Source: Siphonodentalium dalli (lineage: Eukaryota > Mollusca > Scaphopoda > Gadilida > Siphonodentaliidae). From it: a DNA stretch of 64,000 bases. The stretch covers positions 207,554,151 to 207,618,150 of the forward strand of contig CP136065.1 in the NCBI GenBank assembly GCA_032622095.1, written 5' to 3'. Positions within the stretch are counted from its first letter, which is position 1. Each line of letters opens with the position of its first letter. The translations under genes and the position numbers were made by a program. Below the pieces are notes generated by a model, which was given only the letters and a program-made list of their open reading frames with translations, did no database searches and was not told where the DNA came from. This document shows positions 3,300 to 26,015 of this stretch, piece after piece.

Positions 3300-3518
3300 A
3301 ACGAACGGTTAAGAATTGAGTTGTAAATATGTCCACAGCACAGCCATCGCTGTTTCCGTAAATAATTGCATTATTATTATTTACTGAACATGCATTCTTG
3401 GTAATACAGATTGAAAACATCAACCAACCCTGAAGATGTCTGCGACTGTTGCTTCTTTACTACAAAAAAAACGCTCTATGTTTCTAACGCTATCATTTTC
3501 TTTATACTTTTTTTTATT
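3300..3518 (+). repeat. Module A, upstream part
   Basis: It contains the family's conserved upstream block, 'agccatcgctgtttccgtaa' and 'ctgaacatgcattcttggta' at about 3342-3404, followed by an AT-rich spacer. The same block precedes cores B, C, E, F and G but not D. Confidence 0.7.
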
Positions 3519-3698
3519 AACCACTCAGATTGCGAGCCCTTCCTCCTTTACGTCAAAAGACAGAAAGGAACGGTCATCAATGACTTCGCGCTCAGAAGGG
3601 CACGCTACGACTCGTCATCGTGGTTTACGATCCAGTCAGTATTACCTGACGTATCGTCGATACATACTATAGAAATGATCCCTAAAAGTATGATCTTA
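3519..3698 (+). ncRNA. Conserved core module, copy A (39-bp internal deletion)
   Basis: The core runs from 'aaccactcag' to 'tatgatctta'. It is 180 bp instead of 217-221 because 39 bp are missing between 'atgact' and 'tcgcgctcag', exactly the segment that forms the first stem in the other copies. The right 100 bp is essentially identical to every other copy. An open frame with a hydrophobic N-terminus (3436-3672) crosses it, but conservation continues past the stop codon and the frame is broken in other copies, so I do not call it protein-coding. The ncRNA label is a hypothesis; it could be a repeat cassette. Confidence 0.4.
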
Positions 3699-4199
3699 AT
3701 GATTTTGGTAGTTCAGTCTGATAGCATAGTTATGTTAAACGATGGACTGAGGTGTAGTAATATATCTCTTTTAAATATATATAGTTTGTTTGAAAATTTC
3801 ACTATGTTAACTCGGCAAACTCTTATAAGTTCATCGATATCAGTAACATTTATTCAATGTATTTTAATTACGTAAGGTTTGCTTTAAATTTCGTAAGTTT
3901 TATATTGAGAAGAAATACTTTATCACGCGTCTGAATCTAAATAGAGTTACGGCCTCTCTTGTTCCGAATGTACAAAGTAAAACAAAGCTTATTGCCAATC
4001 TTAAACTATTTTCCGCAGTGGTGCATACCGTTCAGTTCTTCAATAATCACAAGTAGCCTACTTGACATACTTCCGGCTTAGTCGTCAGGAACAGGGGTTA
4101 TCAAAAATTCAACTGTACCAGATTTAATAGTATTTCTTATCAGCAATTTTTTTTCACAATTAATTATTTTGTCTTAGCCAAACTCACGATTAATTTCAA

Positions 4200-4513
4200 G
4201 CTCTTTGTGGAATAAATGTAATTGGACCGAGGGGATATCAAGACATACACATATACACCGAATAAATTCAACCAATTTGTCAAATACATTTTGATGAAAA
4301 TGAACTTTAGCATTATCATGACTTTTTGTACAATGAGTTGCAGACGGAGTTGGAAATGTGTCTCCAGCACAACCATCGCTATTTCCGTAAATAATTTTGC
4401 ATCAATTGTACTGAACATGTATTTTAGGTAACATGATGCTTGATATTCCTGAAGGTGTCTGCGACTGTTGCTTCTTTCATAAGCTACCATTTTATTTATT
4501 TATACTTTGTAAT
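4200..4513 (+). repeat. Module B, upstream part
   Basis: It begins with 'attggaccgaggggatatca' and has the conserved block 'accatcgctatttccgtaaa' near 4371. It is nearly identical to 23,765-24,064, the upstream part of module F, which shows that the two arrays descend from one block. Confidence 0.75.
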
Positions 4514-4732
4514 AACCACTCAGAATGCGAACCCTTCCTCCTTTAAGTCAAAAGACAGAAAGGAACGGTCATCAATGACTCAAGATCAACCGACAGAGGT
4601 CGGGGGATCCGAGTCCGCTTCGCGCTCAGAAGAGCACGCTACGACTCGTCATCGTGGTTTACGATCCAGTCAGTATTACCTGACGTATCGTCGATACATA
4701 CTATAGAAATGATCCCTAAAAGTATGATCTTA
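4514..4732 (+). ncRNA. Conserved core module, copy B
   Basis: A 219-bp copy whose variable middle reads 'caagatcaaccgac', the B/F/G type. The inner segment can pair CCGAC with GTCGG and the outer segment GACTC with GAGTC. The right half forms the hairpin GTCAG-TATTAC-CTGAC common to all copies. The core is visibly richer in GC than its flanks. A structured RNA is my preferred reading; a conserved repeat cassette is the alternative. Confidence 0.45.
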
Positions 4733-5219
4733 ATGATTCCGGAAATTCCGAATGATAGCATAGTTCTGTCAAGCGATGGATTGAGGTGTAGTAAAATTTC
4801 TCTTTTAAATATCTGAAATTATCTGTGGGAAAAAATCACTACTATGTTGACTCGGCTGATTCTGAAGTTCGTCGCTATCAGTAACAATAACAATTATTCA
4901 ATGTCATTTTATTTTATTGGTTTTGCTTAAAATTTCATAAGTTTTACATATCGAGAGGAAACACTTTATCACGCGTCTGTTCTAAATAGAGTTACCGCCT
5001 GTCCTGTCCAAAATGTATACACAAAGAAAAAAAAACCAATTGCCAATCTTAACCTATTTTCGGCATTGATGCATACCGTTCTGTTCCTCTATAATATCAC
5101 GTATACTTGGACATTTTCGGCTTATAGTCGACAGGGACAGGGATTATCTAAATTTCAGCTGTACCAAATTTTATAGTATTTCTTATCAGCAATTTATTTT
5201 TCACAATTAATTATTTTGT

Positions 5220-5641
5220 CATAGCTAAACTCACGATTCATTTCAAGCTCCTATGGAATAAATGTGTTTGATCAGAGGGGATATTAAGACATATACCTAC
5301 AACGAAGAAATTCAACCAAAGACAACAATGAATCTAACAATTGCGATAATATGCCAATCGTCGAAACATAATTCAAATATAATCGAGATCCGATAAATGA
5401 TTCTGCAATAATTTCACAAACAAAAGATATGTATACAGGACATTTTGCATGCAATGTAAATATGCCCACAGCAAAGCCATCGCTATTTCCGTAAATAATT
5501 CTGCATCAATTTTACTGAACATGCATTCTTGGTAATGCAGCTGGATAACATTAATTATTACTGAAGATGTCTGCACTGTTTCGTCTTTGCTACAAATCTA
5601 TGTTTCTAATGCATCTATCATCTTCATTTATATTTTTAAAT
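5220..5641 (+). repeat. Module C, upstream part
   Basis: It matches 24,770-25,194 (module G) over its length, including 'gatcagaggg', 'acaacgaagaaattcaacca' and the conserved block 'gccatcgctatttccgtaaa' near 5476. Confidence 0.75.
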
Positions 5642-5859
5642 AACCACTCAGAATGCGAATCCTTCTTCCTTAAAGTCAAAAGACAGAAAGGAACGGTCAT
5701 CAATGACTCGGGATTCTCCGACAGCTGTCAGAGATCCGAGTCCGCTTCGCGCTCAGAGGGGCACGCTACGACTCGTCATCGTGGTTTACGATCCAGTCAG
5801 TATTACCTGACGTATCGTCGATACATACTATAGAAATGATCCCTAAAAGTATGATCTTA
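5642..5859 (+). ncRNA. Conserved core module, copy C
   Basis: A 218-bp copy with the D/E-type middle ('cgggattctccgacagctgt') although its upstream flank is of the G type. Its downstream flank (5860-6180) matches that of copy D. Copy C is therefore a mosaic. The frame that is open across copies A, B and F is shifted by one base here, which argues against a protein product. Confidence 0.45.
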
Positions 5860-6182
5860 AATGTTTCTGAAGTTCAGTCTGATACCATGGCTATGTCTTA
5901 CGCTCTAGTGAGGTGTGATTAATATCACTCGGATATATTTATTGATTCTTTGTAAAAATTAGAATTGTTACAGCTCAAGATAATCTAATGTTCTTCTCCT
6001 TTTGTCAAAGCAGCACTTATTTTAAAATAATATATATTGCTTTTTGTTTAAATTTGTTGTCTTCTGTGTGGTGAGAAAAAGTTATCACTGGTCTTATTCT
6101 GAATAGAGTTACCACCCTAGCTAGCTGGTTGGTTAAATTGCAACTCGACCTTGACCATTTCACCCTTCGTAACATGCAGCAT

Positions 6183-7567
6183 AGTGACTGACTAGTCCAA
6201 GTCTTCTTGTACTAAAACCAGCTAAGATATTGGGATGGCGATGCTGGCGTTTAGTCCAAGCCCGCTTGCATACCAATCCTACCACACGACTTACGCCCAC
6301 GATCTGTGGCGGGAATCTGTGGTGTATTTTACTCGATTTACCTAGCAAATCAATACATGATGCTATATACATCGGAAAGGCTTACATCTTATGGTCACAA
6401 TGGTGTATAATAATCTAACTTTAATGTTAAATTACACATAGAATATTCCGGTTGATTGCCATAAACATCGATTTGTTTCTCTGTTTGTTTACGTTTTAAC
6501 CGAAAGCCGAAGTGGTCCGAATAAGTTCGGCATAATCCGCTGTTTGTTCTGGGAATTCTACTTTCCGTTTCTATATATAGCGCGGGTTTTCCGAACAAAA
6601 ATAGCGAAAACCGATCGCCCGAAAGTCCAGTTTTCTATGTGCTTTCAGAACAATTCCCGCACTAAAAACTTAATGACATAATGGAGGATCAGAACGGTAG
6701 TTTTGTTGACAATTTTCGCAAGCAACTTGTCAAAATTGGAGCAAATTAGAACTCTTGTGTCTGACTTTCCATCCGTGTGATTTTCATCCATGTGCATTTT
6801 GACGTTTGTGTTGATAAAATAATCGGAGTACCGAATCACACAGTTTCGAAATATAGTTCTTCCGTTTTAGTGGGACTTTTCAAACTTAAGGTTAAAAATT
6901 TATACAAATTTTGTTTGATTTTTTGTGTGCTTAACAAGAGCAGTATATTGCTCTGTTCGCTTAGTATATATCTTAATTTCGCCGAAGTCCACCAAATGTG
7001 GGAAATGTAGCACCATATTATTTATTCTAATACTCGTTGTGTTTACACTGTTTTAAACTTTGAGAGGGTTGTAATTCCCCGTAATTTATTTAATGTATTA
7101 CATTTATATCTTCAATGTTTAATTAATCTATTTATTATTTTATTTATTGACACACATAATTACGATTACAATGGAGAATTCTTCGTAATTTGCGTTGTTG
7201 TCCAAAATCTACGGAATATTTTCAACGGAAAATGCCGAACACAGTTCGCGAGGTCAACCGAGTTCGCATACTTTAAAAAAATTGTAAACATTGAGGTAAA
7301 TGTCTCTTTTCGCATTAAATTACCGTTTTAAATTCACAACTGATGTGGGTTTCAGATAAAATAGCATGTCTTCTGCGGAAAATATCCGTTTATTGTCGCA
7401 ATTGTGATATTTTATTTCATATAATTGTGGTTTTATTTGAGCGGGTCACTAACGCTTAAGCCGTGTCATAAGCGAGCATATAGGGCGGTCTTGGACTAAA
7501 CGCCAGCATCGCCATCCCAATATCTTAGCTGGTTTTAGTACAAGAAGACTTGGACTAAGTGACTGAC
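6183..7567. mobile_element. Mutator-like (MULE-type) non-autonomous element with 10-bp target duplication
   Basis: The element occupies 6193-7557 (1365 bp). Its terminal inverted repeats, about 70 bp each (6193-6264 and 7487-7557), begin TAGTCCAAGTCTTCTTGTAC and are nearly perfect. The 10 bases AGTGACTGAC are duplicated exactly on both sides (6183-6192 and 7558-7567). Long terminal repeats and a 9-11 bp duplication are the signature of Mutator-like elements. No transposase frame is visible inside. A related but unoccupied target, 'tactgactgatgcaaattcg', is seen downstream of core D at 11,711, which supports the borders. Confidence 0.85.
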
Positions 7568-7684
7568 ATGTTCGGAAATATTGAATCGGATAGAAAGCAA
7601 CATTTTTATTTATTTGATCATATCGACCAAATTACCTGAAACAACATTGATATAAAGTCTACACGACTATAGACCAGACGAAGA

Positions 7685-8547
<863 letters not shown>

Positions 8548-8873
8548 ATGTCTGACAACAAGGAACGACGTGTTTCAAATTTGGTGGACTTACCACCAGA
8601 ATTCGCTGGATTGTTCTTCAATTCGACTTGTACTTCATTGAAATCGCGACAACAAGAATACAAGTACTTTAGTGAAGGCTACATACATTCAGTTTCAATG
8701 TTTATTTGCGACGACAAGCTCTTTATTGGGGCAAATTATACCACCGAAGCATGATGAAAAATGAACCTGCACATGGCGTCGATTTTGAGATTAATTGTTC
8801 GATAATTTCGGATATTCACTGTTCTTGTCAAGCTGGATATGTAACACATAATAAATATTCAATGTTATTATAA
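8548..8873 (+). pseudogene. Fragment of a SWIM-type zinc-finger protein
   Basis: The frame from 8548 reads MSDNKERRVSNLV and continues to KYFSEGYIHSVSMF and KLFIGANY. After a frame shift near 8740-8751 it continues as SMMKNEPAHGV to IHCSCQAGY and stops at 8871-8873. The arrangement (Y-K-F/Y-F-x-E-G-Y, later K-N-E-P-x-H, then C-x-C-x-A-G) is that of SWIM zinc-finger proteins that are abundant in mollusc and cnidarian genomes, often beside YqaJ-type nuclease domains and mobile DNA. The second half of the finger (C-x-H) is not recognisable and two TGA codons interrupt the first frame. It is therefore a broken fragment, or a single exon carrying a sequencing error. Family assignment is from memory of the motif. 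Confidence 0.45.
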
Positions 8874-10586
8874 CATATCTCTTCACAATAGACACACGAT
8901 CTATCAATTTATAGATAGTGTACCATACAATTTCCCTATTTCGATAACAAATTCGAGGACTTGTATGTTTTCATCCGTTGTAGTCATTTTTTTGTACTTT
9001 TCCGAAGATGCACCATACTGGTATCAAAAAGTGTTCCATGTCATAATTGATTGTTTTTTTCTGGATAACTGATTTTTTTTCCCTGGATAATAGATGGGCA
9101 ATATTGGATCCTATACTGGACTTATGAACGTGAACCTATTGGTCATATATGGAGATGGTTGTGTCACCGACCGCCTTCGACCTCTTTGACTAAACTATCT
9201 ATACGTACGTAGCAGCCCACCATCCTTCCCGATACACCGAAGCATCTGATATTTGTTTTTTTTCTTTATTAACTCCTTAGTCACTAATTTAGAATTTGAA
9301 AATACCACGCCTATACAGAAAGTGGGGGCAATGCCATAGACATATGTTCCAATACATACGGCATATATTGCTCTATAGTGTTTATATATGTCCAAGAATA
9401 ATATAGGGACTGTTTTCCGTGTGTATGGAGCCTCTCTGTTGTAACTTGTAATAATTTTCCCACAATGACGTAGAGCAGACCACCCTATTACCAAGAAGGG
9501 CGTTATGGAACAACATCTGTACAATATATAATATTCCTTTTATTTCAGACAAAAAGAACGCCCTTATCCCTGCCACGTGGGTGTGTATGGGCTATGTAAA
9601 AACGTGACTTATATATCTAAGGAATTAATAGAGACATTTAAATTAAAAAAAACAAAATGTTATAATAACAATTAATAATATTCATAATTGGCACATTACG
9701 CGTATAGAAGAAACATGTTTCAGTATATTGAGAAATTATTTTTCATTTCACAGTTCCCTAATATTCCATTGGTCTGTCATAATGTTTGTGTATGTAAGTC
9801 CACGTATAAATGCCATGAATACCATTTATTCACAAAATATACCAATAAATGCTGTATAATGTACCAAATCTAACCATCACAAATCCGAAAGCTATCAGGA
9901 AGAGGCGCCCTAATCAGCCTGTATTAATCAACAACAGGTGAATTTAACAGGTGCTGTCATATACTTTGGCCATTTTAGTGTCCCTCTTTCCCCAACAAAT
10001 CATCTCTTGGAGATTATAACACTATGTGGTCCATTATCTCAAATGTGTACATAGTTTGATTTGATAGTTTTAACTAATAAGATTATCTAGCACTTCCTAA
10101 TCCCCTCATCATATTTCCATTTGTCACCTCTCTGGCTCAACCTTCATAATTTACTAATCCAAAAAGCCCATAGGGCGAAGCTTTCGCATTCTGTTACTGT
10201 TATATCATTATATTGTGTCAACTTGTACATGAAACCAATACTATTTTATACAAAACAAAATCAAAGCGACATAGAGCTGGGACTAATATAATATGTGTTA
10301 TATTAGTCCCAGCATAGAATAAGCCGGTAAAATGAGTCTTTTTGTCTAACCGCCTGTTCGCGGAAGCGACCATTGCTCCAGGCTGTATAATGCAATTATC
10401 TCATTGGCTCACATAGCTAATTACGGTAGGGTCAATTAGGTGCTGGTTGTTATTGTTATTTTAACGGAATTCTGAATTGGTCATTCGCGAAACCAATATA
10501 TTTTATATTCTATAATTACAATCATGGGTATATAATATATGATCTTGAGCGCGTTACCATTTCTGACATTGGTTTTCTTGTAAACC
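8874..10586. other. No gene seen; one short perfect hairpin
   Basis: AT-rich DNA without a recognisable gene. The only clear structure is the inverted repeat at 10,276-10,313. Open frames on the minus strand at 9195-9576 have no family features. Confidence 0.5.
10276..10313. repeat. Short perfect hairpin
   Basis: The 16-base arms GCTGGGACTAATATAA and TTATATTAGTCCCAGC are separated by 6 bases. No related copy was noticed elsewhere in the window. Confidence 0.85.
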
Positions 10587-10996
10587 ATGATCTCGAGTTC
10601 GTATGCGTACACTGTACCTGGGGCAATATTTCTCCAACATTCACAACCATCCGCGATTCAATCAAATATTTATTGCAAAAGAAAACATGCCAACGCTAGC
10701 GCATGCGAGATGCATATGCTAAAGAAGTTCTATATTAATCCATGTGTGATTATATATAACTGCTCGAAGGCAGCATTTCAACCCATGTCATCCGCCTCTT
10801 GAAGTCCATGCCACATTGCCACGGAATCAAGGTGCGTGACTATATCTGAATTCAATAAACACAATCTTCTCAATAAGAGACAGATTTTGCGTCGTATTGG
10901 GCACAGGTAGAAGACGTTAAGTGACGTTGTTTAGAACCGGATTTTTGGCAAGATGAAGGAAACCGACAAATGGATTAATCATATCTTAAAAGTAAA
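10587..10996 (+). repeat. Module D, upstream part (second flank type)
   Basis: This flank differs from that of the other six modules. It matches 1075-1275 and, more weakly, 3030-3300. It ends with 'agatgaaggaaaccgac' and 'aaaagtaaaaaccactcaga', running straight into the core. Confidence 0.65.
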
Positions 10997-11214
10997 AACC
11001 ACTCAGAATGCGAACCCTTCTTCCTATCGGTCAGCTGACAGAAAGGAACGGTCATCAATGACTCGGGATTCTCCGACAGCTGTCAGAGATCCGAGTCCGC
11101 TTCGCGCTCAGAGGGGCACGCTACGACTCGTCATCGTGGTTTACGATCCAGTCAGTATTACCTGACGTATCGTCGATACATACTATAGAAATGATCCCTA
11201 AAAGTATGATCTTA
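10997..11214 (+). ncRNA. Conserved core module, copy D
   Basis: A 218-bp solitary copy outside the two arrays. GACTCGG (11,060-11,066) can pair with CCGAGTC (11,091-11,097) around an inner GAC-AGCT-GTC hairpin. A second stem pairs CGAT and GTCAG (11,144-11,155) with CTGAC and ATCG (11,162-11,172). Its upstream flank is unrelated to that of A, B, C, E, F and G, so this copy defines where the shared core starts. No similarity to 5S, U1-U6 or tRNA was evident by eye. Confidence 0.45.
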
Positions 11215-11545
11215 ATGATTTCGGAAGTTCGGTCTGATACCATGGCTATGTCTTACGCTCTATTGAGGTGTGATTAATATCACTCGGCATGTTTATAGAT
11301 GATCTGGAAAATCAGAATGGTTCAACAGACTCTAGTATTCATCGTGTAGTCATATGAGACCGATGTTCAATATTTTTAACAATCATATATTCATCTTGTT
11401 TAATTTAGTTGTGTTTTGTGTGGTCAGAACGACTCATTAATGGCCTTATCCTTGTTCTTGTTAGAGTTACCTCCCTATAGTTTGCTGGTCAGCTGGAATG
11501 AACTGGACCCCGAATTTTACTTTACTCCATTGGCAATAGAAACAA

Positions 11546-11702
11546 TTCCACCCTGGTCAAGTGGTCTTGTTAGTGTGTTATGATCTGGCGGGTCCTGCTG
11601 AATTGCTATGATGCTGTTAGGGCAAAGTGTTTCTAAAGTTATAATTTTCAACAGGACCCACGAGCATCATAGCACTTTTGAATGACCACTTGACCGGGGG
11701 GG
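11546..11702. mobile_element. Small fold-back element next to module D
   Basis: The ends are inverted: CCCTGGTCAAGTGGTC at the left and GACCACTTGACCGGGG at the right. Inner blocks 'gggtcctgctgaa' and 'ttcaacaggaccc' also pair. The right end runs into an 11-base poly(G). No target duplication could be fixed because of the G run. Confidence 0.6.
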
Positions 11703-12375
11703 GGGGTGAATACTGACTGATGCAAATTCGGAATATTGAGCCGTGCATAAGGTTATATTTTGATTTATTTGTTCATTTGCCCAATCGTTATATATTTGAC
11801 TGGCGTTCGTGTCGGCCGAGTGACTCAAGATTGGTGTACAAATATTCAGCCGTTTACCATTTAACAGAGGTCACGTTGATTACGACTCCGCCCTATATAT
11901 ATTATCGGTTATCAGTTAATCTATTTTGTGTGTGCTCTTTTGAACTAATTATGGGGCTTTGTTCGCACAAATTTATTCGTATGCAAAATGAAGCAGTATT
12001 TCAGCAATTACGTTTGATCCAGAAATGACATAAGAATATGAATTGAATGACAAAAAGGTACATTTCTTTGCCTATACATAAGGCACGTCCTGTGACAGAG
12101 TTCAGTTCATTATAATTGCGTTCTGGCCTAACATTCGGTCGCAGAGTTTAAGCAATTTAAATTCAATGCGCATAATCGATTATAAATATTTTGATCTCAT
12201 TAATTTTTATTTTAGAAGTTTTCCTTGACAGAAATAGACCAGATTGAATAGAGTGCATTTTATAAGTAGGTACAACACATTGCATACCAGTGTGTCGTTG
12301 ACAATGACTTCTAACCGTGGAATGCGGGGTATGCAAACCGTAACGGCGGAAGCAATTGTAGTTTAATAATATCGG
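11703..12375. other. Module D downstream flank, then no gene seen
   Basis: 11,711-11,770 aligns with the right flank of the Mutator-like element at 7558-7620, for example 'attcggaatattga' versus 'ttcggaaatattga', so it is the continuation of the module. No recognisable gene follows. Confidence 0.5.
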
Positions 12376-13023
12376 ATGAGGCAGCCAGTGTATTCCATTC
12401 CAAAATTGCATACTATGTTAGATAAAATAGGCTATCCACACAATATCTGTCTCTTTTCAACAATCACAAACTACCGTGGGAACATCTTTTTTTGCAAGTT
12501 CATAAATGAATCTCAGCCCGGAATAAGTATATCCGAATCAGGGGCGGCTAAGCAAAGGGGCATGTATCGATCTACCGTTCGGCCATCAATTACCATTACG
12601 ACTGTTTGTCCTGAAAGCACACCTGTACAGACTATATACAATCGCTCCAGTGGTTTTGTACAGGAAATGTTCTCCATATTAGCCAAATACGATCTTTTGA
12701 ACTATTTGAACGACTACCTGGACATTGGGGTCTTCCCAAAACTGTCAACGTGGATAACTCTTGTGAAGGCAGCTGTCAGGGGAACGTTCATTTCCTCGTG
12801 GCAGACCAAAGTTTCGTCCGATCCATCCTTGCGAATTATGTGGAAAGTTCATCCTAATCCCCTATCAAACTGGGCAGTCTGGAAACTTCTCCATGGAAAC
12901 GCTCACATGTTGAAATATCTCGAAAACTTAGTACTGCTTCTCAACAGGACTACCTATGCCAACAATTTAGTGTGTCATCTCTGCAGCGAAGTGTACTCGA
13001 ACGAAATCGACCACGCCATGTAG
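12376..13023 (+). pseudogene. LINE (non-LTR retrotransposon) ORF2 C-terminal fragment
   Basis: A 215-codon frame. Residues from about 100 onward carry spaced hydrophobic, Trp and Arg features (KYDLLNYLNDYLDIGVFP, a WITLV segment, MWKVHPNP, NWAVWKLL). It ends in a truncated C-x2-C...D-H motif (CHLCSEVYSNEIDH) where LINE ORF2 proteins of molluscs often have a C-x2-C...H...C knuckle. The frame stops with two TAG/TAA codons before the last cysteine, and no reverse transcriptase or endonuclease domain is present upstream. I infer a 5'-truncated, decayed LINE. The call rests on motif spacing only; a host exon cannot be excluded. Confidence 0.4.
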
Positions 13024-16000
13024 TAACGACTAATTATCTTCTCGACACCCACGCATGTTGTAATGACTAACTTTCAAATCTGTTGGACAAATCAGATTTT
13101 CCTGCAACAAAAACTGTAGTGAACATTCAAATGCATATATGCTTCACTCTTGTGGTTTCCAACACCTCTCCATACTTGTACATAACGGCCCACCACACTG
13201 GCCAGGGGAGCCCACTTTAATCCAACTGTATTTATATGTGATGTATATTGATCTCTCCTATACTTGGAGGTAATAAAGATATCTCTCTGTGCCACTACCG
13301 TTGAGTACATTCGCCAACCCTGATGTGAGTGGTATACACGAAGTGTTATCATAACAGGTGGATTACGGCAATGGTTTGTTGAACAATTATATCTATTCTC
13401 ATTTTCGCTTTTGAGATATTATATATATAAACGAAACAACTCAACTATATTTAAGCACGAACAAAGGTCTTTCCTGTCTGAACAAGAATGACAATCTGTC
13501 TTCGGAATTTAATAGCTTTTCGAAACATTCTTTCAGAGGACCAATAAATGAGGTGTGTGGTTCCAAACAATGTATTGAGCAGTTCGTTTCGGACTCTTGT
13601 AGAATAATATATTTGAGACGAGAAGTGCCGCATAAAACTGTTAAAAGTGTCGTCGCCTTGGTCATATATAATATGGAATGCATGCGAATGAATTGTTCAA
13701 CGTATACCTATCACTTATTTCATTTTTGACATTAAATACCGACCTGACCATTTATTTCCAGCCACGAACTTTCCAAAAAACTGAGACTATCTAATAATTT
13801 GCTCGACTTTATCTGGTTCAATGGGTTGCAGCACAGTTGTAAATTCGTGGTTGGACGCGAAGACACTCTAGCCACGCGCCTGTATGTCCCAGAAATTTAT
13901 AGCCATATAGAATGTGGATTTTCACATCAAGTGTATGTATAACGACGAAAAATAACCTATATTATGTCATCTTAAAGACATATTATGTACTTGCTCGGGT
14001 GCGTGTAACTGATAAAATAGAATTCAGGAGCTATGCCAACTGGAGAAATGTAGTATTCTATTAACATCGCGAAAATCTGAAGCAAATCGAATGTGCCACT
14101 CCATAGAAAACATCGTCTGAACTACGCTCAATTGTAAATATTTCGGGACGCATCTATCGGCGATAAACTAATGAAAATTATTTCCCCATCGAGAGTCACT
14201 GCATTTAATTAATATATAAGAATGACGGTGTTTGTTGTCAATTTGGATATAATATTTGTGAAAATACCAATTCTTTGGACAAGATTAATCTACATTTCTA
14301 TTTGATCACCATACCGGAGTATTTCACATTACTTTTATTTATATTATTAAATCGGACCTGACCTTTTGAAATTAAGGCGCCAAATATGTACTGAACCCAA
14401 CACTGATATAGCAAATGGCTTTGCTCACCTTTGGCCGCCTTCCTCTGTTTTTATGACCATGCATGCGATACGCTCGCATGGAGTCATACATATCCACCTC
14501 TCCGCGGGTCTCATGTGAATTACCAGTATTAACGCATTAATAGGAAATGCTCTGTTTGCCATATTTTCTGCCTGCTGAATATTTAATATGTTCTTTATGA
14601 ACGCTCGAGAAGGCCCCTGGCGGGGGAGCGTGTAGAGCCTTTCAATGGGCGGTAATCGAGCGATAAATTGCAGTCATATGGCGAGAAGGGGGACACGGCG
14701 TAACAAATGTTGTCTCCAGGACAAAGAGCCTCCGGTCAATTTAAACACAGTCATTCCCAGCGTATAATTCCACTCGTGAATATTGTATGATACTTGTATC
14801 GCTTCTTGGTGAGGTTCAAGCATATATCGAGGATGGGGCCGTTTCTTATGGCGTATATAAGTGTCTTCTGGAATGGGGTGCCCATTTTCGATTTCCAATT
14901 GCACACCAAGACCTGACTTAATTCCAAACAATTGAAAACGCATGTGCTCTCCATTCTCAAGTGTTCAAACTGTGCAAAGAAACGAGTGGTGATCCCTGCG
15001 TTCGTGGACAATTTTAAGAAACGTTTGCCCGGAACGTCTGCACATGAACACGGTGTCACGGAGCCAAAATGTATGTTGGGGTGGTCAGAACACAAACATT
15101 GTTGGTAGATCATATTTTGGGAACATTATCAGGGACGCCGCGATACATAGAGTAGCTGCCCCTCTTGTTCTCCGCAAACGGGGGGCGTGGCACAGGGGAT
15201 ACAAAGTACAATTTTTATCCTTCATACAAGACTGAAATAAAAAATAAACATAAACATTGTCGTGAAAGTAAACTACATGCCGCCTAATTCCAAGTTTCTT
15301 TGAAATTGTGTAATTTATTAGCAATTATATACATGTACATAATTATGCATATATGGTGAAATAAACAATGTGGTATATATTAACAATTCGACGTCCTTAA
15401 ATGCTGCGTAAGTAGCACACTGTTATCTTTTCGGCATTAATGCTCTATATACCTCCGATTAAAATCGTGGTCTTTTAATGGAGGTTGTGCCCTTTGCACA
15501 TGGTTGCTTCCCACAACTTCTCTGATAATACAAGTGCAGAAAACAAACAAAATAGCCATGCATCACATAATATAAGTTCAACAAACGACGTAAAGTTTTG
15601 TCGAACTTTTTATCCAAAATCCCCAGGTTTTTTTTCACTTATTATCCGATATCCCCGAAGCGAATCTAAGCATAATGGAAGCACTGGAGGGCGAGGGGCA
15701 CAACCTTCAGACAGACACTTTGTCACAAAGTTATATATGCAGGGCCGAGTTAATTTCTTCTTGACTCGCAAACGTTAGTTGCAATGTGATTCAAACTACT
15801 ATGAGATTAGTGTAATGCCTAACCTATCATCATATACGACATTATACATATATAGAAACAACGAAATACCACATGCATGGGCAATTAATACACGTCCGGT
15901 ATTGTTTGTTGATGAGTATTTGTAGACCCACTGAGCAGTATTTGCATTTAGTGAATTATTAACGCATAGTGAAATTGCGCATTGAGATACACCAAGTCCC

Positions 16001-17596
16001 AGTGACACCCGGTGATCATCTGATTCTAAATTCCAATTAATAAACAAGTTGTATAATGGCAAGCGTGCCAGCATATAAAAAACTCGACACGTGCATGTGT
16101 TGACTGCCATGACTATTAGCATTTAGTGGAGTTTGCGTGCAATGGATAATTGCACATGCAGATATATCATGACTCAGTGACAATGATCTAAATATGACAC
16201 AAGAAATGATATATTTCGTACACATGGCATACACTCGAGATAATTTACTTGTCACCCGAATATTCATGTCTGGCAATAAGCATGCAATTCTGTATATCAC
16301 CTCTTGAGCAATGGATTTAAAATGCGAGCCAAATTGGTGAGAATGGGCGGGTTCTATAGCCGTGAAGAGACTTGCTCTTTTAGAGAGGGAACTTGCGGAT
16401 TGGAGAGGAGAGATTTACAAAGGGTACGTTTTGGATATGTATATAGCAACCGTATGCTCGTATTCTGCTGACCCATGCATGGCAATGTTAGTCTGCCTGG
16501 GCTGATCGTTTGTTAACTTTCTTCACATCGGAAATAGAGATGTGCAACAGCACGACTATATATATGCGCCCCAGCCAAATATTCCCCTCTGTGATAACGT
16601 TTCCCTCTTGTAAATTATGCATTCAATGATTATCCGGTCAGCAAATGACTGGAAGGGACCGAAGGGTGTTTAAAGTCGAAGTTGAAATATACCCTGAATT
16701 CAAAAGATGTATTCGATCGTTGTACATCGCGCTCCACTTTGTCCCACTAACCACACCTGTCGCATGCATACATTTACTCACGTTCGAGTGGCCATTGAAG
16801 AGTGCAAATAATCGCACAATATGCGCCGCGATCAATTGTCACTACAGACTCCTAATACCCAACTCAAAAACCAACATCGCCGCATAATCTATACAGTCTA
16901 ATGGTGCTGATCTCGTCATTCGATATACGCGGCTTTAACTTTGACATTACTGCATTATCTACAAACCACTGATGGGGTGCAAATCGTTGTTCGTGATTAC
17001 TGGACGTAACCAGATCCTTCATTGATATGCAAGATGCCATCTCGTCTTCCTATCGTTAAACGTCGGCCAAATACTTGGATATAATGAAACCTTTATCACG
17101 TAATTCTATTCATGTGCAAAGGTAAGTTGGAATGATGAATTTTAATTGCCAGTGCCGCACCTGGTATCATGTTGCAATCTAGTTATTACTACACTATCCA
17201 TACCACACATTCTGTATCAATGTTATAACGTTAGAACGGTTGGACTAGTGCCTATATATACTGTAGCTCAGTGTTTCAAACTTTTGAAAAACTAATGAAA
17301 AAATAAATGTCTAAAACTTTCCAGATTGATTGATTGATCGATATAGTGGTAACATTTTAAAATATATTAACAATTTCAACTCATTTCCAGTCTGAATGTT
17401 TCAGCTCATGTTGTGTCGAGTGCGAAATTTATAACTATTGAAATTCTCTTCCATATTCACACCACCATCCAAGTCACCATCTATACACTGATATATCTTT
17501 AATAGTTGGGTTGTATAAATATTGCGAGGAGCACTTTATAATATAATAAATTTTAATGGAACTTCTGTTCAGTACAATTAAAAATTCACTTTCATG
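13024..17596. other. No gene or repeat recognised
   Basis: About 4.5 kb of AT-rich DNA. Open frames up to 120 codons on either strand show no family features, no convincing splice sites and no shared repeats with the rest of the window. The first 400 bp may still belong to the decayed LINE. Confidence 0.4.
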
Positions 17597-17825
17597 CCTA
17601 ACCCTGTCTTAGTAAAGACTCATTGACGAGTATAGTGTACCCTTTGTTGAACTTATTATCTGAACATTTTTTTCCATTTGCAGTATTAATCCTTCTGCAC
17701 TTGTATTATCTTTTCGCCTGTCTGTCGTCTGTTCTATTTCCTGAACATGTCTCCAAATGAATAATAAACTAACCCAATATGTATATATATTAAATAACAT
17801 GTTCCATTGGTCTAGCATAACCACC
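17597..17825 (-). mobile_element. Degraded TTAA-type MITE (CCCTTTCTTTAGTAAA family)
   Basis: It contains 'gtaaagactcattgacgagta', 'tgttgaacttattatctgaa' and 'cctgaacatgtctccaaatg', which recur at 48,182-48,440. Its ends are decayed, so borders are approximate. Confidence 0.5.
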
Positions 17826-18183
17826 TCTGTATGGTGGGACTGTTCGGCACCATGCAGATATACAGTTCAATTATTACCACATTCATCATTATGTTTGTTG
17901 ATCTCGGGACATGTTGGGTTTTGTTTTCAAAAGTGATCAAAGTGAAAGCTGATTTGAACAATATTTCTGATTATTCCTTCAAGACGTCTTGTCCAACCTC
18001 GGACTAACATAGCAATGTGGATATAGCCGTATGGTTTAGTTTTTCCCGACCGAGAGCCATTTTGTGATGACGTTTTGTTTGTTTCTTGTAGGCCAGAGAC
18101 GTGCAGCCCGCATAGCATGGCGGTGTGAGGATGCCTCGGACGTGAAGACATCTACGTGTCTCTCTTATGGATTCTCCTCTTGT

Positions 18184-18705
18184 TTACATGTGAATCCTCT
18201 GATACATCTCAGAAAGTGGGACTTGTCTCCCCTCGTCTGACAGTGCATGAGTAAGGATAAAGTAACAGTCAGACCACGGTGCTTCGTTGGGTACAATGAC
18301 CTTCAGTTTCTCTACGAGATTGGGATCTTTACATGTTTCAAAATTGTTCTTCTGTGGATCTAGACTACCCACGTGTTGGGAACTTTGGATGCGTGATGAT
18401 ATATTTCATGTTGACCAGTTGTTTTAGTATCCGAGAAACTGGTGTTTACAAACCAACAGCAACCAGTGTGCTTTCGAGATACTGTGAACATCGACCGCGC
18501 AGATGACGTATTTCAACTCGTAATCTGCATGCGATATATATCTACGGTTCTTGGTTGAGAATAATACTGTTCCATCCGTATTTTTGAACGTGATATTCCA
18601 AGGATTTCTGAGGACGTGGTCGTGACGCCGTAGTGACAGGTGTGGCATGTGAAACAACCATAAACTATTACATTACCTGATTGTCAAATATATACCTACT
18701 TACTG
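18184..18705 (-). other. Possible coding exons or relic, unidentified
   Basis: Two neighbouring minus-strand frames, 18,657-18,424 (78 codons, including RNPWNITFKNTDGTVLF) and 18,372-18,184 (about 60 codons, including LKVIVPNEAPWSDCYFIL), look protein-like: mixed composition, alternating hydrophobic residues and higher GC than the surroundings. They are in different frames. An intron of about 60 bp or a frameshift would be needed to join them. A possible acceptor ('taatgtaatag') lies at about 18,670. I do not recognise the family and did not find more exons on either side. Confidence 0.25.
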
Positions 18706-19490
18706 ACAACGACAACCATTTAGCCGAATCAAATATAAAAATATTTTGCCCAGAAGGCACGAAACGTCGCCCGACCGTGTGGGTTTTATAGTTTATCGGG
18801 AACACATAACATATACCACCGCTTATTGGACACATTCGATTCAACAGTGTTATTAAAGGAACTTATAAGGCGTAATTTCACAGCTGAATTCTTAAAAGGA
18901 TTATATCGCCCGATATTAGGCGAGCGCTGGCTTACGGTCAAAAGAAATTTATGGAGAACATACAGGGGGATTAGAAAGCTCTGGGTGATTAAATTAAGCT
19001 ATTGCAGTTATTATTCTCTATGTCAATGACTCCAATTTGTGAGTACATTTCTGGATTTTATTTGCGTTGGTCACTTCTGCATTTCGCTGTTGGATTTATT
19101 GTGAATATTGGAGTGATGTTATAGTCGACGACCTGAAGGAATATTAAAAGGGAAGAGCAGTACAGAGAGCCTTTAACAAGCAGTATAGAGCCTTTGACAG
19201 CTTCCGATGATGATATGGTGTTTTCGCACCGCTTTGTTGGTTATTTTTTCGGATGAGACGGGAATTCAACACGATACCAAGTGCTGATTTGTATTGGATT
19301 ATTTCGGAGTATGTTCGGGTTAGCAGAACCACTGTCTAGGTCTATCTGCGACCAGGAGTTTGACTCGGTCCACACCATCCTCACACACAGGTAAGCTCAA
19401 TATCAAAGGATACCATATTAACTACATGTACCTAAAGTTACCTAAGATGGCAAAGATACAATAGGTGGCATAATATCCTTTAACTCGTTG

Positions 19491-19640
19491 TTTACTAAAC
19501 GGATTCTCCCATCTGTTAAAAAGGGTATTAATTGGAATGGTATATTATTCATTTGGAGGGGTGCTCATTAAGTAGAAGCAGACTACAGACAGACGAATTG
19601 ATAATCCAGGTGCAGAAGGGTGCACTATTTATTGGCTGGA
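19491..19640 (+). mobile_element. Truncated TTAA-type MITE
   Basis: It starts TTAACTCGTTGTTTACTAAA and continues with 'ggattctcccatctg' and 'attattcatttggaggggtg', matching the right-hand half of the family seen complete at 51,358-51,621 and 59,464-59,668. The other end is missing. Confidence 0.55.
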
Positions 19641-19699
19641 ACTGTCCAGATGATATGTTCAAGATATATTTAGAAATAGCCGTATGAGTCTTGTGTATA

Positions 19700-20029
19700 C
19701 GATAATGGTCAATCCCGGGTATAAATTAACAGTAAAATAACACATTTTTAGACTCATGAGATATATTATTGTGCAAATATAATGTTACACAATGCACGAT
19801 CTTTCGATCCTTCTATGGATCTTTATCAAGTGAAGTGGATCGTTATCATTGGAGTTGTGATGCCACGGACAACGCCGACGATATAACGACCCACTTCACT
19901 TGATAAAGATCCATAGAAGGATCGAAAGCTCGTGTATTGTGTAACATTATATTTGCACAATAATATATCTCATGAGTCTAAAAATGTGTTATTTTACTGT
20001 TAATTTATACCCGGGATTTACCATTATTG
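19700..20029. mobile_element. Fold-back element with 139-bp arms
   Basis: The arms 19,700-19,838 and 19,891-20,029 are inverted copies with few mismatches. They contain AATCCCGGGTATAAATTAAC, GACTCATGAGATATATTATT and CTTTATCAAGTGAAGTGG. The loop is about 52 bp. No open frame and no clear target duplication were found. It would extrude as a cruciform or form a long dsRNA hairpin if transcribed. The class is unknown. Confidence 0.85.
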
Positions 20030-21740
20030 ATGAATATTTCACAATAATTTTTCAACAAAGAACGGCTTAAGCATTCCCCGTCCGACCCGACGCCAAAACA
20101 ACAACTATATATTAACTCATTCTCCGGACGATTTGATTGTCAGATATCTATTTTCAAGGACGTCGTTTTATCATGTTTTGAAATTTGGTCGCTGAATAAT
20201 TAAAAAGATCGCCTTCGATTAAGATCGCATATGGTATAACCCATTAACGACGAAATATTAAAGAGCGTCCATAAACTATGTTTTGTTTGTTCTCATATAG
20301 TGTTAGTTTTTATGTTGTTGTGGGATCTTCGGGATGCCATGTCTGTTACTATAGTAACATACAGACATCGCGAAGACCCCCCAAGAATATAATGACGTTG
20401 GTTGCAAATAATTTATATGCGTTATTTACCTGGTAAATGAGAAATACCTTCAAACAGTCTGACTAATTTGGTGTCAAATCGGTTGGGAATCTTTAAAGGT
20501 CTTGGTGGCATATCACCATCTCTATTTCAAACGACACCCTTGGTGACGTACGTGGAAATGCATATGACATTCATCATATAAATAACCTTGATTAATTAAT
20601 AAAGTCTGATAGTTTTCAAAATTCAGATTTGATACACTTTCAGAAAATTCGATTTTGTCGAGCGACACATGGTCATGCACCGTTGGAGTCAAGACACAAA
20701 CAACGTAGCACAACTAATGCTGCGCGTCTTCTCATTCAGATAAAATAAATCTAAATTAAATGAGATTGTCGTTCGGTACACGTCCAAACACGTTAGGTCC
20801 TCCTTTATTTGGCTTGTATTTACACCCCTCCCTAAACCCCTGATAATCCTGATAACTGCTTAATTGATTGTATCAACTATTGTAGAAAAAATGTTTTCCG
20901 CTTTATTCGCCAGAGTTCATTCGGTGCGAAATTGTGGGACCATCTAGTCATTCTATGAGCGTGAGTGTCATTGTTCATAGAGTTTAGCAGAGTACAGATT
21001 TCCTAAGTGGGCCAATTCTATTGATGTATTGCGAGTGTTTTCCTTTTTCAAACACCCATGCATTCAACTTTATCGAAACATCAAAATGACTTTAATATGT
21101 GTGTCTCAGTTCACAGGGGGCTAAAATGCTAAGTCAGAACATTATAATATCAACTGAAATATCTCGAAGGGTGATCACGTCATTATATTATTTTGGTGTG
21201 TTAAAGAGGAGGCCAAGTGACCAATTTTGAATAGGCATTTCCATGCAAATCTCCGCAGCAAAAGTTAAGAGTTGCACATATTGTGGGTGTGACTTCGTGC
21301 GATATTGAAAACATGCTACACATATTTATCTGGTGGGTCGGCTTGGAATAATTATGTCCATTAGAGAGTGGGTGTACTTATTTTTTAATTTTATATTGAT
21401 TTATCAAAACTAGGTCAGATCAAAATTCTCCATAACAAATTTATAGTAAAAATTGGCAATTTACACAGCCCAGCCGCCAGTTAAATATTGTGTCTGTTTA
21501 TTAATGATATGACTGCTTTGTCGCCAGCAAACTGCTTCATATATAACTTTTGCAGTGGATATTTGCATGGAAATCCGAATTCACTTGACCTGCCCCTTAA
21601 AACACGCAAGAAAATAGGTCACTTATATATATTTACGCGTGCTTCGCCCAGAAGTACTGAAATAGAACCAGGAACGCAAATAAATCTATATCTCCGTCAG
21701 ATGTCGATTACAAAAAGATGCTCCGTCGCCAAGTGAAAAG
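20030..21740. other. No gene seen
   Basis: A small palindrome lies near 20,339-20,370 ('atgtctgt', 'tactatagta', 'acatacagacat') and a single AAAGAGCGT motif at about 20,259. Nothing coding is recognisable. Confidence 0.45.
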
Positions 21741-21747
21741 ATAACTT

Positions 21748-22560
21748 TATAAAGAGCGTTTATACATCACACCAAGTCGTTGTAAATATTATAAAGAGCG
21801 TTTTTAATCCTTTCTTGACAAAATGACGTTGTCTAAAAGTAAATTTCATCATATGCATGTTTGATTAGCCGAAATTTGGCTTTTGGAAATATTTACCTGA
21901 TTTGTGTCAATTCGAGTGGACTATCTTTAAGAGAAAAAGAAGCGATGTTCATATAAAGTAAGTTCAACACCGCTCGATTTTGTAATACCCTGGACATCCG
22001 CTTCCGGGGATCAACGAGAATGCAAATACTCTAATACGGATTGTACGACATGAAGCAATAAAGAGCGTTACTCGTTCGTCTATTCCTGATATGGTAGAAA
22101 TAAAGAGCGTTTATCTCAACCGTGTGTGACAAGCGTTTTTATCCAGAATAAATAAAGCCTGTGTGTCGATTTCATGTATTTATATTGATCTATCGACCTA
22201 CATGTATATCTCCTTCGATTTCATGTATTTATATTGATCTATCGACCTACATGTATATCTCCTTCGATGTCATGTATTTATATTGATCTATCGACCTACA
22301 TGTATTTATATTGATCTATCGACCTACATGTATTTATATTGATCTATCGACCTACATGTATTTATATTGATCTATCGACCTACATGTATTTATATTGATC
22401 TATCGACCTACATGTATTTATATTGATCTATCGACCTACATGTATATCTCCTTCCAATTTATGATATAATTTGCAGGTTCAATGAGCCATGTTCGTCTTA
22501 ATGCATTGTTTTTGGTTAGATTAGGCCGCATAACAAAGAGCGTATAATCGTGTCGTATTT
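21748..22560 (+). repeat. AAAGAGCGTT-family region with two motif pairs
   Basis: Motif pairs occur at 21,748/21,790 and 22,058/22,099, with an extra degenerate one near 22,533. Between and after them are the family landmarks 'tattcctgatatggtag' (22,081) and 'ttcaatgagccatgttcg' (22,478). The internal 'tttatcgacctatcg' block has been amplified here into the tandem array described next. No frame is coding. Confidence 0.65.
22158..22455 (+). repeat. 28-bp / 49-bp minisatellite
   Basis: There are eight copies of GATCTATCGACCTACATG. The first three are spaced 49 bp apart (28-bp unit plus a 21-bp insert 'tatatctccttcgatttcatg'), the last five 28 bp apart (unit: tatttatattgatctatcga + cctacatg). 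Copies are nearly identical, so the expansion is recent. Confidence 0.9.
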
Positions 22561-22769
22561 CCCGATGAAGTGACCCGTGAATAGCGTTTAATTTGGTCTA
22601 TGATTGTGTAAATGGCTGGACATATGGCTTGCTGAATATGTTTGTTTAATTGCAGTAAGCCTTAACACAGTATGCTCGTGTCTTCAATCACTTTTGACCG
22701 ATATATAATGTCAATATGTTATGTTTCCATGTGCCAAGTAGTCACCACGGCTGTTATTTTGCACTCGCT

Positions 22770-23069
22770 TTTCTAACAATTGGGATAATATGTCAATCGT
22801 TGAAACATAATTCGAATATTATCGAGATACGATAAACGCTTCTGCATTAATCCCCCCTCCAAAATATACATGACTGTAGACAGAGTTGGAAATATGTCTC
22901 CAGCACAACCATCGCTATATATTCCGTAAATAATTCTGCCATTAATTGTATTGGAACAGTTATTTTAGGTAACATGCTGCTTGATAACATTAACTATACC
23001 TGAAAGTGTTGCTTCTGTATTATAAAAAAAACTTATGTTTCTAATGGTACAACTGTGTTTTTTTTAAAT
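22770..23069 (+). repeat. Module E, upstream part
   Basis: It has 'aaacataattcgaatattat' (shared with module C/G flanks) and the conserved block 'aaccatcgctat' with 'ttccgtaaataattctgc' near 22,908. It starts the second array. Confidence 0.65.
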
Positions 23070-23286
23070 AACCACTCAGAATGCGAACCCTTCTTCCTAT
23101 CGGTCAGCTGACAGAAAGGAACGGTCATCAATGACTCGGGATTCTCCGACAGCTGTCAGAGATCCGAGTCCGCTTCGCGCTCAGAAGGGCACGCTACGAC
23201 TCGTCATCGTGGTTTACGATCCAGTCAGTATTACCTGACGTATCGTCGATACATACTATAGAAATGATCCCTAAAAGTATGATCTT
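23070..23286 (+). ncRNA. Conserved core module, copy E
   Basis: A 217-bp copy whose left half ('ttcctatcggtcagctgaca', 'cgggattctccgacagctgt') is the D type, while its downstream flank (23,287-23,530) matches that of copy A. The core type and the flank type therefore do not go together, as if the core had been exchanged. Confidence 0.45.
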
Positions 23287-23764
23287 AATGGTTTCCGTAG
23301 TTCAGTCTGATAGCATAGTTCTGTTAAACGATGGACTGAGGTGTAGTAATATATCTCTTTTAAATATATATAGTTTGTTTGAAAATTTCACTATGTTAAC
23401 TCGGCAGACTCTTAAGTTCATCGATATCAGTAACATTTATTCAATGTATTTTAATTACGTTAGTTTTGCTTCAAATTTCGTAAGTTTTATATTGAGAAGA
23501 AATAATTTATCGCGCGTCTGTTCTAAATAGAGTTACGGCCTCTCTTGTTCAGAATGTACAAAAAAAAAACCTTATTGCCATTCTTAAACTATTTTCTGCA
23601 GTGGTGCATACCGTTCAGTTCTTCAATAATCACTAGCCTACTTGGCATACTTCCGGCTTAGTCGTCAGGAACAGGGATTATCAAAAGATTTTATAGCAAA
23701 TTTTTTTCACAATTAATTATTTTGTCGTAGCTAAACTCACGATTAATTTCAAGCCTCGTGGAAT

Positions 23765-24064
23765 AAATTCAATTGAACCGAGGGGATATCAAGACAATCA
23801 CATATACACCGAATAAATTCAACCAATTTGTCAAATACATTTTGATGAAAATGAACTTTAGCATTATCGTGACTTTTAGTACAATGAGTTGTAGACGGAG
23901 TTGGAAATGTGTCTCGAGCACAACCATCGCTATTTCCGTAAATAATTTTGCATCAATTGTACTGAACATGTATTTTAGGTAACATGATGCTTGATATTCC
24001 TTAAGGTGTCTGCGACTGTTGCTTCTTTCATAAGCTACCATTTTATTTATTTATATTTTTTAAT
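23765..24064 (+). repeat. Module F, upstream part
   Basis: Near-identical to 4200-4513 (module B), including 'accgaggggatatcaagaca' and 'ttccgtaaataattttgcat'. Confidence 0.75.
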
Positions 24065-24283
24065 AACCACTCAGAATGCGAAACCTTCCTCCTTTAAGTC
24101 AAAAGACAAAAAGGAACGGTCATCAATGACTCAAGATCAACCGACCGAGGTCAGGAGATCCGAGTCCGCTTCGCGCTCAGAAGGGCACGCTACGACTCGT
24201 CATCGTGGTTTACGATCCAGTCAGTATTACCTGACGTATCGTCGATACATACTATAGAAATGATCCCTAAAAGTATGATCTTA
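24065..24283 (+). ncRNA. Conserved core module, copy F
   Basis: A 219-bp copy of the B type ('caagatcaaccgaccgaggt'). It sits exactly 995 bp after core E, the same distance as A to B. Confidence 0.45.
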
Positions 24284-24769
24284 ATGATTCCGGAAATTCC
24301 GAATGATAGCATAGTTCTGTCAAGCGATGGATTGAGGTGTAGTGAAATTTCTCTTTTAAATATCTGAAATTATCTGTGGGAAAAAAATCACTACTATGTT
24401 GACTCGGCTGATTCTGAAGTTCGTCGCTATCAGTAACAATAACAATTATTCAATGTCATTTAATTTTATTGGTTTTGCTGAAAATTTCATAAGTTTTACA
24501 TATCGAGAGGAAACACGTCTGTTCTAAATAGAGTTACCGCCTCTCCTGTCCAAAATGTATACACAAAGAAAGAAAAAACAATTGCCAATCTTAACCTATT
24601 TTCGGCATTGGTGCATACCGTTCTGTTCCTCTATAATATCACGTATAACTTGGACATTTTCGGCTTATAGTCGACAGGGACAGGGATTATCTAAATTTCA
24701 GCTGTACCAAATTTTATAGTATTTCTTATCAGCAATTTATTTTTCACAATTAATTATTTTGTCATAGCT

Positions 24770-25194
24770 AAACTCACGATTCATTTCAAGCTCCTATGGC
24801 ATAAATGTGTTTGATCAGAGGGGGTATTAAGACATTATACATACAACGAAGAAATTCAACCAAGGACAACAATGAATCATAACAATTGCGATAATATGCC
24901 AATCGTGGAAACATAATTCAAATATAATCGAGATCCGATAAATGATTTTGCAATAATTTCACAAACAAAAGATGTGTATACAGGACATTTTGCATGCAAT
25001 GTAAATATGCCCACAGCAAAGCCATCGCTATTTCCGTAAATAATTCTGCATCAATTTTACTGAACATGCATTCTTGGTATAATGCAGCTTGATAACATTA
25101 ATTATTCCTAACAATTGGTGCATCAGCACTGTTTCATCTTTGCTACAAATTCATGTTTCTAATGCTCCCATCATCTTTATTTATATTTTTAAAT
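24770..25194 (+). repeat. Module G, upstream part
   Basis: Near-identical to the module C upstream part at 5220-5641, including 'tcatttcaagctcctatggc' and 'acatgcattcttggta'. Confidence 0.7.
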
Positions 25195-25415
25195 AACCAC
25201 TCAGAATGCGAACCCTTCCTCCTTTAAGTCAAACGACAAAAAAAGGAACGGTCATCAATGACTCAAGATCAACCGACCGAGATCGGGAGATCCGAGTCCA
25301 CTTCGCGCTCAGAAGGGCACGCTACGACTCGTCATCGTGGTTTACGATCCAGTCAGTATTACCTGACGTATCGTCGATACATACTATAGAAATGATCCCT
25401 AAAAGTATGATCTTA
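25195..25415 (+). ncRNA. Conserved core module, copy G
   Basis: A 221-bp copy of the B/F type, with a 7-base A run that shifts every frame relative to copies B and F. It sits 1130 bp after core F (B to C is 1128 bp). The right-hand 100 bp is identical to the other copies, including the bases after the TAG that would end the putative frame. Confidence 0.45.
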
Positions 25416-26015
25416 AACATTGCGATAGTTCAGTCTGATAGCATAGTTCTGTCAAGCGACGGGTTGAGGTGTAGTGATATTTCTATTGTGTAGCTTATCT
25501 CCAAAAAAAGAAATTCACTGCTATGTTGACTCGACAGACTCTGAAGTTCCTCGCTATTAGTAACAGTAACATTTATTCAATGTCATTTAATTTTATTGGT
25601 TTTGCTTTAAATTTCCTAAGTTTTATATATCGAGAGGAAACACTTTATCACGCGTCTAAATTCTAAATAGAGTTATCGCCTCTCCTTTCCAAAATGTTTT
25701 CTCAAAGAAAAAAAAACAAATCGCATTGGTGCATACCGTTCAGCTCCTCAGTTATGTCACGTATACTTGGACATATGTTCGGGCTTATAGTTGCAGGGCA
25801 TGGATTATCTAAAATTTAACTGTACAATTTTTTTTAGATTTCTTATCAGCAATTTAATTTTCACAATTAGTAATTTTTTCATAGCAAAATTCACGATTCA
25901 TTTCAAGGTCCTTGTTGAATAAATGTAATTGATCAGAGGGGATATTAAGAAATATACCAACAACAAAGAAATTCAACCCCAATTGGTGTTTTCATTTTGA
26001 TGAAAATGAAGTTTT
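25416..26015 (+). repeat. Module G downstream and start of a truncated further module
   Basis: The sequence continues into the beginning of another unit ('attgatcagaggggatatta', 'caaagaaattcaacc') but breaks off near 26,015. The array therefore once had, or was copied from, a longer array. Confidence 0.6.

Follow-up and report, generated by a model that had tools for sequence, protein, structure and literature searches.

A cluster of U3 snoRNA matches

The window, by which we mean the whole stretch of 64,000 nucleotides analysed here, contains seven closely similar cores, designated copies A to G in Table 1. When the entire window was scanned on both strands with the Rfam covariance models at the gathering threshold, all seven cores matched U3 snoRNA (RF00012) on the minus strand, end to end (model positions 1-219), and nothing else was reported. 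The scores were 142.3-156.5 bits, compared to a gathering cut-off of 34 (E = 6e-32 to 1e-35). An independent repeat search recovered the same seven copies, and an nhmmer profile detected them at E-values of 9.5e-57 to 1.9e-78, six rows of this profile of 14 intact variants being taken from the window itself. The copies lie where an earlier note on this DNA had placed them, its starts (those at 23070, 24065, and 25195 included) being one base low relative to the Rfam units. Copy lengths of 178, 216, 217, and 219 nt fit a non-coding unit. No tRNA or tmRNA was found in the window by ARAGORN.

U3 is a well-known small RNA that eukaryotes use in ribosome building. We consider it almost certain that the seven cores are minus-strand U3 snoRNA genes (box C/D, RF00012) and that every one of them is preceded by an snRNA-type element of its own, a PSE-like ACACC at approximately -58. 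Taken as a whole, this U3 cluster is ordinary: the RNA family is known, and the entry to which it belongs is RF00012. The earlier note had instead proposed an undescribed structured RNA or conserved cassette. The cores are conserved, structured, and non-coding, and its preference for a structured RNA over a protein is correct; this is the one point in favour of its proposal. "Undescribed" is refuted by end-to-end minus-strand matches more than 100 bits above the cut-off, and we give this reading practically no credence. A known consensus does cover the core, as the note had allowed for, and it is that of an RNA family, not of a SINE or satellite. The U3 boxes went unrecognised in that note since the plus strand, the one it had read, is antisense to these genes. 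As to protein-coding candidates, one of the four stop-to-stop frames of at least 150 aa in the window (3405-3875, plus strand) crosses copy A antisense to U3 and was rejected; a Pfam search with the other three frames yielded no family at E up to 1.

Table 1. Features of the window and U3 clusters of the genome (positions refer to the window unless a contig is given).
Feature	Position	Strand	Remarks
Truncated 3' fragment, eighth U3 copy	~3255..3313	-	nhmmer E 1.2e-6; blastn 85% over 55 nt (3255-3309)
U3 copy A, 178 nt	3520..3697	-	RF00012 142.3 bits; probable pseudogene
PSE-like ACACC, copy A	3751..3755	-	at -58; read directly
U3 copy B, 217 nt, body intact	4515..4731	-	RF00012 156.5 bits; boxes
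PSE-like ACACC, copy B	4785..4789	-	read directly
U3 copy C, 216 nt, body intact	5643..5858	-	RF00012 145.5 bits; boxes
PSE-like ACACC, copy C	5912..5916	-	read directly
U3 copy D, 216 nt, body intact	10998..11213	-	RF00012 149.5 bits; boxes
PSE-like ACACC, copy D	11267..11271	-	computed from ungapped alignment
U3 copy E, 216 nt, body intact	23071..23286	-	RF00012 154.7 bits; boxes
PSE-like ACACC, copy E	23340..23344	-	computed from ungapped alignment
U3 copy F, 217 nt, body intact	24066..24282	-	RF00012 152.6 bits; boxes
PSE-like ACACC, copy F	24336..24340	-	computed from ungapped alignment
U3 copy G, 219 nt, body intact	25196..25414	-	RF00012 154.6 bits; boxes
PSE-like ACACC, copy G	25468..25472	-	computed from ungapped alignment
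Segment with copies A-C	3318..5897		second occurrence at 22883-25453, holding copies E-G; 89.6% over 2641 columns in self-blastn
Cluster I	C6, 105.0 Mb		19 places, mostly tandem array of ~2.4 kb units; 15 identical bodies
Cluster II	C5, 100.5 Mb		6 places, plus outlier IIb at 100.2 Mb
Cluster III	C5, 141.5 Mb		6 places
Cluster IV	C5, 206.2 Mb		3 places
Cluster V	the window		7 places

Box motifs and secondary structure

On the RNA strand each copy starts with AAGAUCAUACUUUUAGGGAUCAUUUCUAUAGU, which contains boxes A' and A. String matching identified box C' CGAUGACGAG, box B GAGCGCGAAG, box C UUGAUGACC, and box D (CUGA) in 7/7 window copies, and in all seven the boxes follow in the order A', A, C', B, C, D. 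The motifs were compared with those given in the available text of PMC5832005. The "last 100 bp" of the plus strand, which had been described as essentially identical among copies, is the U3 5' domain, and the description was accurate: each of the 21 pairwise comparisons gives 98-100% identity over the right-hand 104 nt, well above what chance would produce. The flanks are more diverged than the core, as also stated previously, with 42 to 98% identity over the stretches from -500 to -101.

Both stems that had been drawn from the plus strand are real on the RNA strand, where they are paired in 95.5-100% of the cells of the 14 variants. Boxes B and C are separated by GACTCGG/CCGAGTC, a stem present in 6/7 window copies and absent from copy A; the other stem, CGAT/GTCAG...CTGAC/ATCG, is the hairpin in the U3 hinge. 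The reported difference of CCGAC/GTCGG versus GAC/GTC between copies is variation within the stem between boxes B and C. For the U3 fold as a whole, 90.8% of 952 cells were paired in the 14 intact variants, compared to 34.7-44.6% for slid versions. The former percentage is biased upwards, since the fold was assembled manually, combining the structure line of Rfam with the hinge hairpin of the earlier note and a register of the last stem that was chosen by eye. Copy A was excluded from the fold and covariation counts. A de novo RNAalifold consensus of the same intact variants differed from the U3 fold, contained 2 pairs with double changes, and was dropped in favour of the hand-written fold.

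In the 14 variants, two covariation measures support the U3 fold with compensatory change. Double-change cells in kept pairs numbered 20 against a shuffled mean of 7.3, and the covariation score was 0.102 against 0.074; both values were reached by 0/500 shuffles. The two other measures stayed at shuffle level and provide no covariation support, pairs with any double change (5) being equalled by 174/500 shuffles and further pair types (14) by 500/500. The double changes represent few events, because they mainly follow the split between clusters I-III and IV-V. The 5' domain is almost invariant and uninformative on covariation, and so is the near-invariant hinge hairpin.

Six of the window copies look intact. 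In copy A, 38-39 nt are missing from gene position 115 onward; they correspond to the stem that separates boxes B and C, and the alignment of this copy to RF00012 skips 37 model positions. The box B/C stem adjoins the box B/C motif, the binding site of U3-55K/Rrp9, and this motif reportedly mediates the binding. Since the lost stem adjoins the bound motif, copy A is probably a pseudogene, dead as a U3 gene despite its intact 5' domain and upstream element. The additional 3' fragment at 3255-3313 is not among the Rfam matches at the gathering threshold.

An upstream element shared by U3 and U1

The motif ACACC was found at -58 or -59 in 35/35 genomic U3 copies whose 5' end is intact, among them copy A, but in 0/7 copies with a replaced 5' end. 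All seven window copies have it at approximately -58, where it occupies bases 54-58 beyond the right-hand end of the gene. In a test with one representative from each of five clusters, ACACC was the sole 5-mer over -100 to -1 that was common, within 2 nt, to all five, and 0/5000 shuffled sets shared any 5-mer. Out of 42 U1 snRNA places, 12 loci with 8 distinct upstream sequences were inspected, and the same motif was present at -58 or -59 in 12/12. For U2 snRNA, 12 loci out of 46 places were inspected; they belong to one array, have a single upstream sequence, and contained no exact ACACC between -100 and -1, with AAACC at approximately -57 instead. This U2 tandem array, with many copies spaced 920 bases apart, is located at G000:C5:203.27-203.30 Mb (L039-L050).

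Upstream of the U3 matches, CCCACATC, which we take to be the plant-type U3 promoter element, occurred in 0/42 stretches, while 1/42 had a TATA-like string between -36 and -18; one of the 42 stretches comprised merely 116 nt, up to the end of its locus. According to the available part of PMC7277114, polymerase II transcribes U3 in yeast and humans, whereas plants use polymerase III. We read ACACC as the putative core of a PSE, and its pattern fits snRNA-type (PSE) transcription by RNA polymerase II. Because the TATA-like string is confined to 1/42 stretches and the plant-type element to 0/42, we infer from these upstream sequences that polymerase II is the likely enzyme for these U3 genes, the window copies included. 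The ACACC at approximately -58, common to U3 and U1, may be of use in locating further genes of the snRNA type in the same genome.

U3 genes across the genome

Matches to RF00012 were found in at least 42 places of the 2.23 Gb assembly (9 contigs), distributed over five clusters and one outlier, this count being a lower bound from the 61 of 15865 candidates that were scored. Of 42 rows in overlapping loci, 7 were discarded as duplicates (2 of them cut at a locus end); the remaining 35 and the 7 window copies make up the count. Rfam at the gathering threshold identified only U3 in the fetched cluster regions. Bodies were intact in 32/42 matches, representing 14 variants, one of them with a changed base in the box C' string. 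The 10 defective matches consisted of 7 copies with a replaced 5' end, 1 with a replaced 3' end, 1 deleted copy, and copy A. In the deleted copy a 20-nt loss removes box C', and its Rfam match stops 5 nt early. Cluster II contains three identical replaced-5'-end copies (L023:4103-4326, L024:5268-5491, L025:7850-8073) and cluster III two near-identical ones (L015:4052-4278, L016:7957-8183); these have been amplified alongside intact neighbours.

By their 3' domain the U3 copies fall into two classes, one of 215 nt in clusters I-III and one of 216-219 nt in clusters IV-V, the window included. Box D was CCGA, not CUGA, in 13/13 matches of clusters II, IIb, and III (L022-L026, L015-L018, C5), and 7 of the 32 intact bodies carry this variant. 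Box D (CTGA) is described as very stringently conserved in fungi in the available text of PMC5832005, which also reports no diverged U3 paralog families there, in contrast to the 3'-domain divergence between clusters I-III and IV-V in the present genome. We regard the two 3'-domain classes and the CCGA box D as mildly notable. That the genome keeps two U3 classes, possibly for different tissues or stages, and that clusters II and III may make U3 with a CCGA box D, seems to us rather improbable.

Growth and activity of the cluster

Copies A-C lie in a segment that is repeated with copies E-G (Table 1). The upstream flank of copy E is 94-96% alike to that of copy A, and its 3' part just 81% (60/74). 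Copies E and D are identical in the 3' part (112/112), and only 63% identical in the first 100 upstream bases. The 3' parts of A and B are 95% identical (70/74). The copies are mosaics, which sequence exchange between them explains, and we propose that the cluster grew through tandem and segmental duplication. The mosaics, the local segmental duplication, and the damaged copies fit ordinary birth-and-death evolution with gene conversion.

Presence alone is no proof of activity, because 10/42 genomic matches are defective. The window copies could be U3-derived pseudogenes or a repeat, with the cell's U3 supplied by other clusters, for instance cluster I on C6 with its 15 identical bodies. Cluster I is indeed larger and homogeneous, and the damage to copy A and to the fragment at 3255-3313 would agree with such a decayed cluster, as would the defective share of the genomic matches. 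Decay is less easily reconciled with the six of seven window copies that retain the six boxes and the fold, or with a 5' part of 104 nt that remains 98-100% identical while the flanks drop to 42%. Retroposed pseudogenes would moreover lack the upstream element, and ACACC is found at a fixed distance in 7/7 copies. We therefore consider a cluster of pseudogenes unlikely and prefer to regard the window copies, copy A and the fragment apart, as U3 genes.

Predicted role and pairing with rRNA

As U3, the RNA from these genes would serve as a pre-rRNA chaperone. The start of 18S rRNA and the 5' ETS would be the pairing partners of its 5' domain, and the snoRNP proteins would be carried by the 3' domain with boxes B/C and C'/D. 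Pairing with rRNA would explain why the 5' 104 nt are so constant; the 3' stems do vary, and their changes are partly compensated. Possible pairs with the 18S of this genome join U3 nt 16-22 (box A) to 18S nt 8-14, U3 nt 8-11 (box A') to 18S nt 18-21, and U3 nt 3-5 to 18S nt 22-24. The available text of PMC5832005 places the yeast U3-18S interaction at 18S U9 to C25, and the predicted register is that known from yeast, which is consistent with the pairing and not proof of it. The energy of the U3-18S duplex was equalled by 164-179/1000 shuffles and was not significant. For the hinge-5' ETS duplex, three loci were used, one with a strong 18S match from model position 4 (L053), one with an SSU match from position 57 on (L052), and one with no SSU match above threshold (L051); the duplexes were equalled by 41, 27, and 11 of 100 shuffles, none significant.

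Comparison with known U3 genes

The window copies have the same full-length sequence and structure and the same box order as U3 snoRNA (RF00012; SNORD3 in humans, as named in the available part of PMC7277114), together with the same PSE-like upstream element common with U1. They show no defining difference from it, except that copy A is without the B-C stem. In Euglena gracilis, U3 likewise occurs in many copies that differ mostly in the 3' stem-loop domain and are attributed to duplication in the available text of PMC2784804; the linked U5 or tRNA gene described there is absent from the window (Rfam at the gathering threshold, ARAGORN). In fungi, too, there are several near-identical U3 paralogs that carry box motifs and are presumed to evolve in concert, as far as the available text of PMC5832005 goes. 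A literature search for U3 snoRNA in a bivalve found none. The main value of these results is a correction: what seemed an undescribed RNA turns out to be a household gene whose antisense strand had been read. Annotation gains a U3 cluster that includes one probable pseudogene and one fragment.

Other repeats in the window

An element of approximately 400 bp is present in four copies with 94-98% identity and in both orientations (1276-1674, 37644-38039, 39759-40161, and 42733-43132). Its first copy contains inverted arms at 1422-1515 and 1557-1650 and is MITE-like. A separate inverted repeat at 19702-20027 has 145-nt arms that are 97% complementary, with a spacer of 36 nt. Two tandem arrays were also observed: a long one at 57560-59420, with a 50-bp basic unit and higher-order periods of 83, 133, 183, and 333 bp, and one with a 28-bp unit in approximately 10 copies at 22173-22445, less than 1 kb from copy E.
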